Shown here piece by piece: positions 3,217 to 34,428 of a stretch of DNA of 34,428 nucleotides (the first letter of the stretch is position 1; every line of letters begins with the position of its first letter). The DNA comes from an uncultured Oscillospiraceae bacterium (GTDB lineage: Bacteria > Bacillota > Clostridia > Oscillospirales > Oscillospiraceae). The translations under genes and the position numbers were made by a program. The stretch spans positions 1 to 34,428 of the forward strand of contig CANQTW010000026.1 in NCBI GenBank assembly GCA_947626845.1, in the 5' to 3' direction. A model generated the notes under the pieces. It did not search any database. It was not told the DNA's origin and worked only from the letters and a program-made list of their open reading frames with translations.

Positions 3217-3258
3217 TTACTTTCTCCTCTTTTGTCAACACAAAAGAGGAGAAAGTAA
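3217..3258. repeat. Perfect 18-base-pair hairpin
   Basis: The arms at 3217-3234 and 3241-3258 are exact reverse complements, with a 6-base loop (TCAACA). The left arm is purely pyrimidine-rich (TTTCTCCTCTTTTG). Part of the left arm is also repeated just upstream (TTTCTCCTCTTTG, 3204-3216). It is not followed by a T-run typical of an intrinsic terminator. Confidence 0.8.
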
Positions 3259-3416
3259 ATCCCCCTTCGCCTATATGGCGAAAAACTCTCCCGCCGCTCG
3301 GTGGAAATCCCCTCCGCCCTGTAAGGGCGGACATTCAAACCCTCCCTCTTTGGTGCATAGACTTTTTTCACTGCCCCATCTTTTACTGTATTTTGTCCCA
3401 TTCTACTGTCTATCGG

Positions 3417-31859: not shown

Positions 31860-31921
31860 ACTTCATGTAAGGCCCTGAGAGAGCCGCGTCTGCCCCTGTG
31901 CACGGAAGGAGCGTTTCATTC

Positions 31922-33451
31922 ATGGACTATCAGAACCCGATCCTTTACGCCGACTACTCGGACCCTGACGCGATCCGGGTGGGGGAGGACTACTACATGG
32001 TGGCCTCCTCCTTTACTTACCTGCCCGGCGTGCCCCTCCTGCACTCTAAGGACTTGGTACATTGGGAGATCATCAACTACTGCGTCCGCGCCCTGCCCTT
32101 TGAAAAATATGACCGGCCCTCCCACGGCTCCGGCGCCTGGGCCCCCTCCATCCGGTATCACGACGGGCAATTCATCGTCTTTATCCCCCTGCCCGACGAG
32201 GGCATCTTAGTGGCCCGCTCCGCCGATCCTTATGGGGAGTTTAGGCTGAACCTGTTGTGTGAGTCCCTGGGCTGGATCGACCCCTGCCCCCTGTGGGACG
32301 ATGATGGGCGCGCCTACATGGTCTTTGCCCTGGCCCGAAGCCGCTGCGGCGTCAAGCATCGGCTGATGCTGACGGAGATGGACCCGGACTGCACCCGCCT
32401 TATCGGGGAGCCGCGGCTCATTTTCGACGGGGAGCAGATGGCCCCCACCACCGAGGGGCCAAAGCTCTATAAGCGGGACGGGGAATACCTGATCCTGGCC
32501 CCCTCCGGCGGCGTAGCCACAGGCTGGCAGTCGGCCTTCCGAGCCAAAAATGTCTGGGGCCCCTATGAGTATCGGGTGGTGATGCGCCAGGGGAGCACAC
32601 CGGTGAACGGCCCCCACCAGGGCGGCTGGGTGACGGCCCCTGACGGCAGGGATTGGTTCCTCCACTTCCAGGACGTCCATGAGCTGGGCCGCATCACCCA
32701 CCTCCAGCCCCTGTGCTTCATCGGCGGCTGGCCCCTCATCGGCAGTGACCTGGACGGCGACGGCGTCGGCGAGCCGGTAAGCCGGTGGAGTATGCCCGCG
32801 GAAGGGAAGCCCGCCTATGAGATCGCCCAGTCCGACACCTTCCCAGAGGGCCGCCCCGGCCTTCAATGGCAGTGGCAGGCCAACCCGAAAAAGCGGTATT
32901 TTGCAAGCAGCAGGGCCGAAAACGCCCTGCGTCTTGCCTGCCTTGTCAACGAAAAGCGGGAAAACCTCCTGTGGTACGCCCCCAACGCCCTGACCCAGAT
33001 CCCCCAGCACCCGTCCCTGACCGCCACGGTGACCGTGCGGCTTTCCCAGGCGGGCACAGCCGGGGATATGGCCGCCCTGGGCGTCATCGGCCACGCCTAC
33101 GGGTATCTGGGCCTCCAGCGCACGGAGGGCGGCTTCCGGCTTGCCCTGTACCACGGTGAGGTGACGGAAAAGACCTTTGAGGGCCAGGCCGCGGAGACCC
33201 TGGAGGCGGCCCTGGACTGGCCGCGGGAGACGGCCACTTTGCGCCTTGAGATATTCCCCGACAAGACCTATGGCTTTGCCTGGTCCGCCGACGGGGAACC
33301 ATACACGCCCATCGGCGGGCGGTATCCCCTCCGCCGCGCCACCTGGACCGGCGCCAAGCTGTGCCTGTGGGCCTGCAGTCGGGAGAACCTGCCCTCCGAC
33401 GGGTACGGGGAGTTTACCAGCTTCCAAATCAGGGGCACCGAGGAAAACTGA
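31922..33451 (+). CDS. GH43 family glycosidase (beta-xylosidase/arabinofuranosidase type)
   Basis: The 509-residue protein has a five-bladed propeller GH43 domain followed by a C-terminal beta-sandwich of the GH43_C2 kind (from about 320). The catalytic base is D14 (YSDPDAIR), the pKa-modulating Asp is D120 (GWIDPCPLWDDDG), and the acid is E178 (PTTEGPKLYKRDG). FTYLPGVPLLHSKDLVHWE is a family-typical N-terminal stretch. No signal peptide is seen, so it acts inside the cell on imported xylo- or arabino-oligosaccharides. The ATG at 31922 follows AAGGAGC. High GC marks the end of the AT-rich island. Exact sugar specificity is uncertain. Confidence 0.92.
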   Translation: MDYQNPILYADYSDPDAIRVGEDYYMVASSFTYLPGVPLLHSKDLVHWEIINYCVRALPFEKYDRPSHGSGAWAPSIRYHDGQFIVFIPLPDEGILVARSADPYGEFRLNLLCESLGWIDPCPLWDDDGRAYMVFALARSRCGVKHRLMLTEMDPDCTRLIGEPRLIFDGEQMAPTTEGPKLYKRDGEYLILAPSGGVATGWQSAFRAKNVWGPYEYRVVMRQGSTPVNGPHQGGWVTAPDGRDWFLHFQDVHELGRITHLQPLCFIGGWPLIGSDLDGDGVGEPVSRWSMPAEGKPAYEIAQSDTFPEGRPGLQWQWQANPKKRYFASSRAENALRLACLVNEKRENLLWYAPNALTQIPQHPSLTATVTVRLSQAGTAGDMAALGVIGHAYGYLGLQRTEGGFRLALYHGEVTEKTFEGQAAETLEAALDWPRETATLRLEIFPDKTYGFAWSADGEPYTPIGGRYPLRRATWTGAKLCLWACSRENLPSDGYGEFTSFQIRGTEEN

Positions 33452-33564
33452 CCGTATTTCACCGGGAAAAACGGGCAAAAGAACCGCCGGAGGGGCAAAA
33501 ATGCCCTTCCGAACGGCCTTCACCTCCGCGCCGTCCCGTTCCGGCAGGTTTTTCGTTTTGTCCC

Positions 33565-33593
33565 TTGACAAGTGGGGGGAATGCGGGTAAAAT
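33565..33593 (+). promoter_or_regulatory. Promoter of the tRNA-Arg repeat locus
   Basis: TTGACA (33565-33570), 17-base spacer, TAAAAT (33588-33593). Transcription would start about 5 bases before the first tRNA half and run through all three copies. Confidence 0.85.
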
Positions 33594-33604
33594 ACATCAT
33601 ACAC

Positions 33605-33710
33605 GCCCTTGTAGCTCAGCAGGATAGAGCGTTCGCCTCCTAAGCAGACGGAGAAGCAATCGCCTTTTCCCTCAAAAGCGGACAGTCCGCTGTTCAACTT
33701 AAGTCAATAT
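33605..33710 (+). repeat. tRNA-Arg 5'-half repeat unit 1 (106 bases)
   Basis: The first 41 bases (33605-33645) are identical to the 5' half of tRNA-Arg(CCT), from acceptor strand through D arm and anticodon loop. A 12-base segment (AGACGGAGAAGC) that differs from unit 2 and a 53-base constant segment shared with unit 2 follow. The constant segment has a small AGCGG/CCGCT hairpin. The 3' half of the tRNA is missing, so this is not a working tRNA gene. Confidence 0.9.
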
Positions 33711-33816
33711 GCCCTTGTAGCTCAGCAGGATAGAGCGTTCGCCTCCTAAGCACACGAACCATCAATCGCCTTTTCCCTCAAAAGCGGACAGTCCGCTGTT
33801 CAACTTAAGTCAATAT
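33711..33816 (+). repeat. tRNA-Arg 5'-half repeat unit 2 (106 bases)
   Basis: It has the same layout and length as unit 1: the 41-base tRNA 5' half, a differing 12-base segment (ACACGAACCATC), then the 53-base constant segment, ending directly at the intact tRNA. The unit boundaries are exactly 106 bases apart. Confidence 0.9.
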
Positions 33817-33893
33817 GCCCTTGTAGCTCAGCAGGATAGAGCGTTCGCCTCCTAAGCGAAAGGCCACGCGTTCGAATCGCGTCAAGGGTGCCA
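33817..33893 (+). tRNA. tRNA-Arg (anticodon CCT)
   Basis: This 77-base tRNA has an encoded CCA. Acceptor GCCCTTG pairs with CAAGGGT (one G-U), the D stem is GCTC/GAGC, and the anticodon stem TTCGC/GCGAA holds the loop CTCCTAA with anticodon CCT. The T stem ACGCG/CGCGT holds TTCGAAT. It reads AGG codons. It is the only complete member of the three-copy array. Confidence 0.96.
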
Positions 33894-33896
33894 CCG

Positions 33897-33957
33897 AAAA
33901 ACACCGATTTTTGCCCCTGTTTTCGTCAGAAAGCACACAAAAACCGGTGTTTTTTTG
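33897..33957 (+). terminator. Terminator of the tRNA-Arg locus
   Basis: AAAAACACCG (33897-33906) pairs with CGGTGTTTTT (33945-33954), then further T. An alternative stem, TTTTCGTCAG (about 33920-33929) with CTGACGAAAA (33963-33972), overlaps it. Confidence 0.65.
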
Positions 33958-34267
33958 TTTGCCCTGACGAAAATCGTCCTTTGTGCAAACACGGCTTTTT
34001 TCGTACACCAAGCTATATGCCGCTTTGCACTTCAATTAGCAAAAGTTGTCCGCCTAAGATGAGGATTGCGCAGGTTCAAGGTATATAACCCTTGCCAAGA
34101 GAACCCAGTATTTTACTTTCTGCTAATCAAATTAGCAGGAATGGGGTATTTTTCGGCCCGAAAAGGGGCCTCCAGCTAATTTGAGGTTTAGAACCCTCAA
34201 AAAACTGCTAATTTCCCAGGCGGATGACGCCAGTTCAAACAATTTCAACAGTGCATATGACATATTC

Positions 34268-34316: not shown

Positions 34317-34428
34317 ATGGTAAAAATCAAAGTCATGTTCCCCGAATCCAAGAAGAAGCAGCGCAAGATCGCGGACGAGGTGCGGCATACGGCCTACGAG
34401 TGCGCGGAGGAGCTTTGGGAGGCCATGC
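34317..34428 (+). CDS. N-terminus of an unrecognised protein (partial)
   Basis: The ATG at 34317 is preceded by a strong AAGGAGG, 8 bases away, and the frame is open to the window edge (37 residues). The start is basic and strongly charged (MVKIKVMFPESKKKQRKIAD), followed by a helix-prone EVRHTAYECAEELWEAM. I do not recognise the family. Being the first gene after a tRNA with possible recombination sites, it may be the first cargo gene of an integrated element. High GC matches the main chromosome. Confidence 0.6.
   Translation, partial: MVKIKVMFPESKKKQRKIADEVRHTAYECAEELWEAM

Follow-up and report, generated by a model that had tools for sequence, protein, structure and literature searches.

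The closest precedent for the locus described here is the tRNA-dependent lysogeny of actinobacterial phages (PMC10865867, Guerrero-Bustamante and Hatfull 2024), in which, according to the relevant passages of that paper, a tyrosine integrase recombines a short core (about 10 bp) at an attB within a tRNA gene, the core does not rebuild the tRNA, and the incoming element brings along a complete tRNA of matching isotype. The arrangement proposed below resembles it in each of these respects. In the phage Fionnbharth, the supplied tRNA is described as overlapping phage gene 37, and its own promoter has been demonstrated. The same passages describe the evolutionary relation to classical systems as unclear and raise the question of how widespread such integration is elsewhere. 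Described through the same source, prophage Lj965 of Lactobacillus johnsonii likewise has a junction tRNA that is not rebuilt and a prophage-encoded cognate tRNA. Replacement of a host tRNA gene by a copy resembling those of other taxa is also described in Sinorhizobium meliloti (PMC11476347). Tandem islands at one tRNA gene, with an anticodon-centred crossover and displaced 3' fragments, are known from the Islander study (PMC4383910), whose finder, as there described, presupposes restoration of the tRNA by a fragment, looks for pieces of the tRNA now in place and discards intervals below 2 kb.

The present elements differ from the actinobacterial phages, as these are portrayed in PMC10865867, in being an integrative conjugative element where typed and in having mostly Clostridia as hosts. 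Unlike that of Fionnbharth, the tRNA has the att core on one side and arm-like sites on the other, has no promoter that was found and would use that of the host, and unlike in phage tRNA-dependent lysogeny as described there, it is itself re-targeted, producing tandem scars. Lj965 is a phage, and the S. meliloti substitution is phage-related, the relevant passages of PMC11476347 mentioning neither promoter capture nor stacked scars. In contrast to the Islander islands, the gene is here replaced by a complete tRNA, with the left scar only 71-114 bp away, core to core. A literature search over titles and abstract openings, mostly of openly licensed papers, returned no report of a promoterless tRNA inside an attachment site or of stacked tRNA 5'-half scars.

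The window is the whole stretch of DNA analysed, the complete 34,428-bp contig C26 of an uncultured Oscillospiraceae genome (G000, 68 contigs). A preliminary description had noted two tandem 106-base units that open with the first 41 bases of an intact tRNA-Arg(CCT), and this proved accurate: the units start at 33605 and 33711 and the tRNA at 33817 (spacing 106 and 106), with all three 41-base copies identical, a register of exact copies that is not chance. Equally accurate were the variable 12-mer (33646-33657 versus 33752-33763, five differing positions) beside an identical 53-base tail, and the expectation that a full tRNA would be scored at 33817-33893 only. ARAGORN reports this as the single tRNA of the whole window, and Rfam gives it 67.1 bits, compared with 17.8 for unit 1, under the gathering score of 29; apart from tRNA, no Rfam family reaches its gathering score in the units. 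The most suitable boundary for the shared tRNA half is the end of the anticodon loop CTCCTAA, at 33643, because the next two shared bases (GC) also open many element arms in other genomes. The promoter described just upstream of unit 1 was recovered as the sole match in 33440-34100 (0.3 expected in shuffles), and in empty sites of relatives (e.g. L021-L024) a promoter stands immediately before the tRNA. A GH43 beta-xylosidase-like gene (31898-33451) ends 113 bp before the window promoter and belongs to the host flank of the insertion site.

We consider it very probable that the units are a layered record of insertions into tRNA-Arg(CCT) by tyrosine-integrase elements, each bringing a full replacement tRNA. 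The features of the window would then be as follows.

33565..33593, + strand: promoter of the host tRNA-Arg(CCT) (TTGACA-17-TAAAAT, 11/12 consensus), presumed to be read through both scars into the replacement tRNA
33605..33643, + strand: scar 1, the putative oldest; 5' half of the host tRNA up to and including the anticodon loop (core CTCCTAA, 33637-33643); its in silico fusion to C34:3235 yields an empty-site tRNA
33644..33710, + strand: putative element arm and linker of the older insertion, 67 bp; 12-mer at 33646-33657, then the 53-base tail
33711..33749, + strand: scar 2, putative 5' half of the replacement tRNA that the older element brought; core at 33743-33749
33750..33816, + strand: putative element arm and linker of the younger insertion, 67 bp, adjoining the replacement tRNA; no promoter match
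33817..33893, + strand: tRNA-Arg(CCT), putative replacement copy of the youngest element and also the next attB; core at 33849-33855
33897..33954, + strand: inverted repeat (17 nt, 94%) and T run 3' of the tRNA, likely terminator, the element's own
34036..34211, no strand: four TGCTAA/TTAGCA sites (at 34036, 34121, 34132 and 34206), putative arm-type integrase sites
34317..34428, + strand: first element gene (MVKIKV...), truncated by the contig end; by eye, equal to the inner part of L056:3669-4148 (G001 element)

The tRNA carried by the window as its replacement copy is also found behind different scars in L014 (G018) and L016 (G030), and the sequence downstream of it recurs in L011, L013, L014 and L018. 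The first gene past it resembles the first gene of the G001 element.

Since all 5' halves in the window are identical, the window by itself cannot distinguish scar from replacement. Its genome was searched with the locus. Besides itself and two weak matches to other tRNA-Arg genes, the query hit the tRNA 3' half twice on contig C34, at 459-506 and at 3235-3282, both copies being preceded by the same arm, ending GGTCTA, and then by the core CTCCTAA; one intact tRNA-Arg(CCT) was found in the genome. When the 5' side of the window, up to the core of unit 1, was joined in silico to C34 from after the core at 3235, the product gave an uninterrupted alignment with the empty tRNA-Arg(CCT) site of G012, a member of the same genus (183/211 identical; tRNA 77/77; promoter and terminator covered). 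Unit 1 and C34:3235 thus have the appearance of the two parts of the original host gene, divided at the anticodon loop. Gene-level similarity was not found between the wider flanks and those of G012. Because the window contig stops 535 bp past the tRNA, the extent of its element that is visible, the linkage of C26 to C34 is drawn from sequence. Downstream of the displaced half at C34:459 there is a host-like terminator instead of the left-end sequence that follows the window's tRNA, so the middle unit (about 2.7-2.8 kb, on C34) may be a non-autonomous relative. Between the displaced halves (L006, 506-3235) lie a GH5 cellulase-like lipoprotein gene, a copy of the host-like terminator and an element arm. 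The GH5 gene is the sole long ORF found there and no integrase was seen; this unit is possibly a non-autonomous cargo cassette mobilised by the same integrase.

In the proposed mechanism, the integrase would recombine the short core CTCCTAA of the element with the anticodon loop of the host tRNA, leaving the promoter and 5' half in place and pushing the 3' half to the far right. Between its core and arm-like sites the element would bring an entire tRNA-Arg(CCT) without a recognisable promoter, which would come to lie 33-75 bp beyond the core of the scar (67 bp in the window), where the host promoter could reach it by reading through the scar. The leader would presumably be trimmed by processing, plausibly by RNase P, and the host may need the replacement for viability. 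As the replacement tRNA is itself a target, serving as the next attB, elements could stack, a second element splitting the replacement and adding one scar and one displaced 3' half. Of this scheme, the sequences themselves show the junctions, matching halves, an empty site, linkage to the integrase, the position of the promoter and nesting. More doubtful, with chances that we put somewhat below even, is the further idea that the tRNA gene serves as a functional component of the attachment site, through which the element captures a promoter, the host comes to depend on the newest element and the landing site is renewed, one chromosomal tRNA gene being exchanged again and again for foreign copies; the scars may in addition lower or tune the supply of tRNA-Arg(CCU) through competition for the 3' half.

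The occurrence of scars and displaced halves was compared among relatives, of which 99 were searched and the upstream side was viewed for 34 loci (L017 and L067 stop before a complete tRNA). The genus set comprises 34 genomes, G000 included, of which 11 lack a usable locus. Scars are present in 13 (G000, G001, G004, G005, G006, G009, G011, G018, G023, G024, G030, G031 and G033; those of G004 and G006 only on contigs ending inside the tRNA, G004 being counted by its search match), and an intact tRNA without a scar in 10 (G007, G012, G013, G015, G019, G021 and G026-G029). A displaced 3' half accompanies the scar in 10 of the 13 scarred genomes, being not found in G005, G006 and G024, versus none of the 10 unscarred ones; G001 and G011 have two scars each, with one displaced half found in each. 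In G023, scar and displaced half combined give the tRNA that is intact in G013. In G030, the scar (GCCCTCG...TCCGC) differs from the intact tRNA (GCCCTTG...TTCGC) and is the best fit to the displaced 3' half (GCGGA...CGAGGGT), indicating that the intact tRNA arrived with the element. The 106-base unit occurs in relatives in one or two copies, as a comparison of related strains proposed in the preliminary description was meant to establish, and it does so behind different upstream sequence, which makes an assembly artefact, the possible refutation named there, unlikely. By eye, the flank after the displaced half in L065 (G004:C42) resembles the flank after the intact tRNA in L024 (G019), a candidate second pair of occupied and empty sites. 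Locus L124 (CANROF010000024.1, an uncultured Oscillospiraceae MAG) has the same sequence around its tRNA as G031:C24.

The elements are linked to tyrosine integrases. Pfam PF00589 was found in the G001 and G101 elements, and homologous integrases lie beside scars in G001, G030, G031, G033, G054 and G068, with 38-86% identity to the G001 protein (tblastn; G030, G031 and G054 partial only). No integrase match was found in the 38.9 kb of G024 and the 60 kb of G089 that were searched. In G000 itself, no integrase close to the element family was found, the reported ones being 21-26% identical to the G001 protein and up to 31% over shorter pieces; the younger element is incompletely assembled. With an alignment of four integrases as query, 346 stretches encoding integrase relatives were found in a collection of 84,980 species genomes, and the best 80 of the 346 were examined as loci from named genomes. 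In 67 of these 80, an intact tRNA-Arg(CCT) lies no more than 2.7 kb from the integrase end, and in 11 there is a split copy. By class, 57 of the best 80 have a scar and an intact tRNA-Arg(CCT), 11 a split tRNA beside the integrase and 10 an intact tRNA without a recognised scar, while two are at contig ends. The 11 split loci are identified as nested insertions, the element's own tRNA having been split by a younger element, with the displaced 3' half beside the integrase. Among viral contigs, 13 integrase relatives were found, with tRNA-Arg(CCT) beside the integrase in none of the five inspected.

In the 57 loci with scar and intact tRNA, the 5' half of the scar differs from the intact one in 53 (median six changes), and sequence past the scar core CTCCTAA is not classed as a matching 3' half. 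The distance from core to core is 92 or 93 bp in 47 of the 57 (range 71-114 bp). The exact spacing of units, 106 in the family of the window, thus follows from an arm plus linker of near-fixed length per element family. Numbers of scars range from one (37 loci) through two (14), three (4) and four (1) to five (1), the last in L145 of Angelakisella massiliensis (G099), where five scars precede one tRNA and the split tRNA of the next older element lies 8.4 kb downstream. Over the same 57 loci, Mantel correlation with integrase distance is highest for the linker (r = 0.84), followed by the intact tRNA (0.48), the adjacent scar (0.29, p 0.006) and the promoter-proximal scar (0.15, p 0.066). Since the linker tracks the integrase, the variable 12-mer, whose variation had been singled out for comparison between strains, is read as the core-proximal part of the element's own arm. 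Linkers differ within single loci. A GTCT/AGAC inverted repeat between the C34 arm and unit 1 was tried and rejected, as G011 and G030 pair the same right arm with the other 12-mer. The elements of L165, L173, L177 and L181 have a tRNA-Arg(CCT) of different shape, with a TAGTTAAATGGATATAAC-like D arm, which means that the CCT tRNAs carried have not all been alike.

Displaced 3' halves were tested for pairing with scars of their own genome over the anticodon and acceptor stems, a scar call requiring GGA in the D loop. The test covers 23 displaced halves in 20 genomes, leaving out G004 (which lacks a complete tRNA) and G023; for G066 no scar was available, and 22 halves were scored. With G-U allowed, 18 of the 22 find a 12/12 partner among the available scars of the same genome; the other four are those of G094, G100 and G106 and the middle half of G102. 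Counting Watson-Crick pairs only, the scar scores better than the intact tRNA for 13 of the 22, equally for seven and worse for two. For most halves, scars from other genomes rarely reach an equal score; for a few common sequences they often do, e.g. at a frequency of 0.84 for G099 with G-U. Expectations had been fixed in advance for G102, a complete genome in which three ordered scars were predicted, and for the older scars of G100 and G106. Two of the three predicted scars were found in G102, the middle one being absent: the oldest fits the farthest half (with CACTC in place of the predicted CACCC, a G-U variant) and the next fits the nearest half. In G100 and G106 the advance expectation failed, and in G107 and G108 the fitting scar is the second of three, not the oldest.

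The interval between tRNA and integrase is rich in TGCTAA/TTAGCA sites, with a mean of 3.06 per locus and at least two in all 54 testable loci of the 57, compared with 0.14 in shuffles and 0.07 elsewhere in the loci. The window has four such sites after the tRNA, versus 0.05 per 437 bp over positions 1-33000. At least one also lies to the left of 18 of 20 displaced halves in other genomes and of both on C34. Integrases of the lambda type use arm-type sites, and by analogy the TGCTAA sites would be arm-type integrase sites; taken as such, they would place the tRNA gene inside attP, between core and arm sites. The best-typed element, that of [Clostridium] asparagiforme (G101), spans 31.6 kb from the tRNA to the displaced half and, among 14 ORFs searched, encodes an integrase, a relaxase, a coupling protein, TrbL-like and TraG-like proteins, ArdA, a topoisomerase and an NlpC/P60 protein, with ABC transporters as cargo, a gene content that identifies it as an integrative conjugative element, not a temperate phage. 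The G001 element (12.6 kb) contains ParA, ParB, PrgI, and integrase and helicase pieces, and in the G068 element (about 6 kb) the integrase adjoins the tRNA on the opposite strand.

Promoters were sought on both sides of the scars. Over the 120 bases that precede the promoter-proximal scar, 30 of 57 loci have a sigma-70 match of at least 10/12, and the best match averages 9.65 versus 7.87 in shuffled sequence. Between scar and tRNA (linker plus 25 bases), no locus of the 57 has a match of at least 10/12, and the mean is 7.12 versus 7.48 shuffled; the G094 linker has, by eye, a promoter-like stretch, a possible exception. It would thus seem that the replacement tRNA relies on transcription entering from the old host promoter. 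Equilibrium folding, which leaves aside co-transcriptional and tertiary folding, predicts that scar 1 captures the 3' half of the tRNA in the window's leader plus tRNA (P 0.99). Over the 57 loci, the scar is predicted to win the 3' half (P >0.5) in 13, and in 55 when a copy of the intact half is swapped in; the correct acceptor stem has a mean P of 0.40 with the scar versus 0.98 without it. An identical scar half could thus compete for the tRNA 3' half. Relative to shuffled sequence, folding is better for the linker of unit 1 (z -2.56) but not for whole units (z -0.55 and 0.11).

A classical tRNA-targeting island, whose attP fragment restores the tRNA and whose units are later slippage duplications of one 5' fragment, would share two of its marks with these loci, the displaced 3' halves and the tyrosine integrase. 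It would also accommodate the element-like downstream side without a scar in G021 and G066, the excess in G100 of scars over displaced halves found, and the identical or nearly identical neighbouring units of G100 and G105, which duplication would give. We nonetheless regard this explanation as highly improbable, as no matching 3' half follows the core of the scar, linkers vary within one locus, displaced halves match particular scars, and among the best 80 of 346 loci the scar differs from the intact tRNA in 53 of 57. Decayed tRNA copies or slippage as the main cause were rejected on the difference between scar and intact tRNA in those 53 of 57 loci and the variation of linkers within a locus. 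The preliminary description had suggested footprints of repeated integration and excision. Integrase footprints in the anticodon stem-loop are retained by the layered-insertion reading; excision is not supported, because exact excision would restore the tRNA and displaced 3' halves match most scars, which fit standing left junctions.

The same description had offered a tRNA-substitution or decoy device producing stable 5'-half RNAs. Substitution comes close to the event proposed here, and a 5'-half RNA or decoy is not needed. In the full form of that alternative, the array would make stable tRNA 5'-half or 106-base RNAs as decoys or regulators, its mobile-element origin being incidental. The upstream promoter, the identical halves, the folding of the unit 1 linker and the predicted capture of the 3' half by an identical scar half, in the window and in 13 of 57 loci, would suit such a role, but that capture comes from a folding model that ignores co-transcriptional and tertiary folding, whole units fold like shuffles, scars vary freely among genomes, and scars are missing from 10 of the 23 genus genomes in which the locus was usable. 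Its probability is, if anything, slightly lower than that of the classical island.

If the layered-insertion reading is correct, the 346 stretches with integrase relatives in 84,980 species genomes (best 80 examined) point to a common route for the horizontal swapping of tRNA genes. The family would bear on the question of prevalence raised in the relevant part of PMC10865867 with conjugative elements, mostly in Clostridia, that have a tRNA in the attachment region, a borrowed promoter and a capacity to stack. Tandem tRNA-half arrays would become readable as an ordered insertion history, and a scar with its displaced 3' half would give the exact ends of an element that an Islander-like finder would tend to miss. 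Two testable questions arise. Can a mobile element keep its host captive through a gene that it provides but that is expressed from the host promoter alone, and how does a leader full of tRNA 5' halves affect tRNA maturation?

Several loci depart from the common arrangement. In L023 (G021) and L036 (G066), element-like sequence ending TTTGCTAATTACTT directly follows the tRNA, with no scar upstream; either a unit was lost through recombination between identical halves, or these are cases of classical tRNA restoration. L105 and L108 are elements with an intact tRNA at sites without a 5' half, ending CTCCTAA. The reverse complement of the L105 site (TTAGGAGGAGG) resembles, by eye, the Shine-Dalgarno region before the start of an ABC transporter ATPase, and this site is likely a secondary attachment site. 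Some linkers resemble worn tRNA 3' halves (e.g. GCGGCAGTTCGTTCGAATCC), which would fit an origin from classical elements, the restored half having decayed after a whole tRNA was gained.
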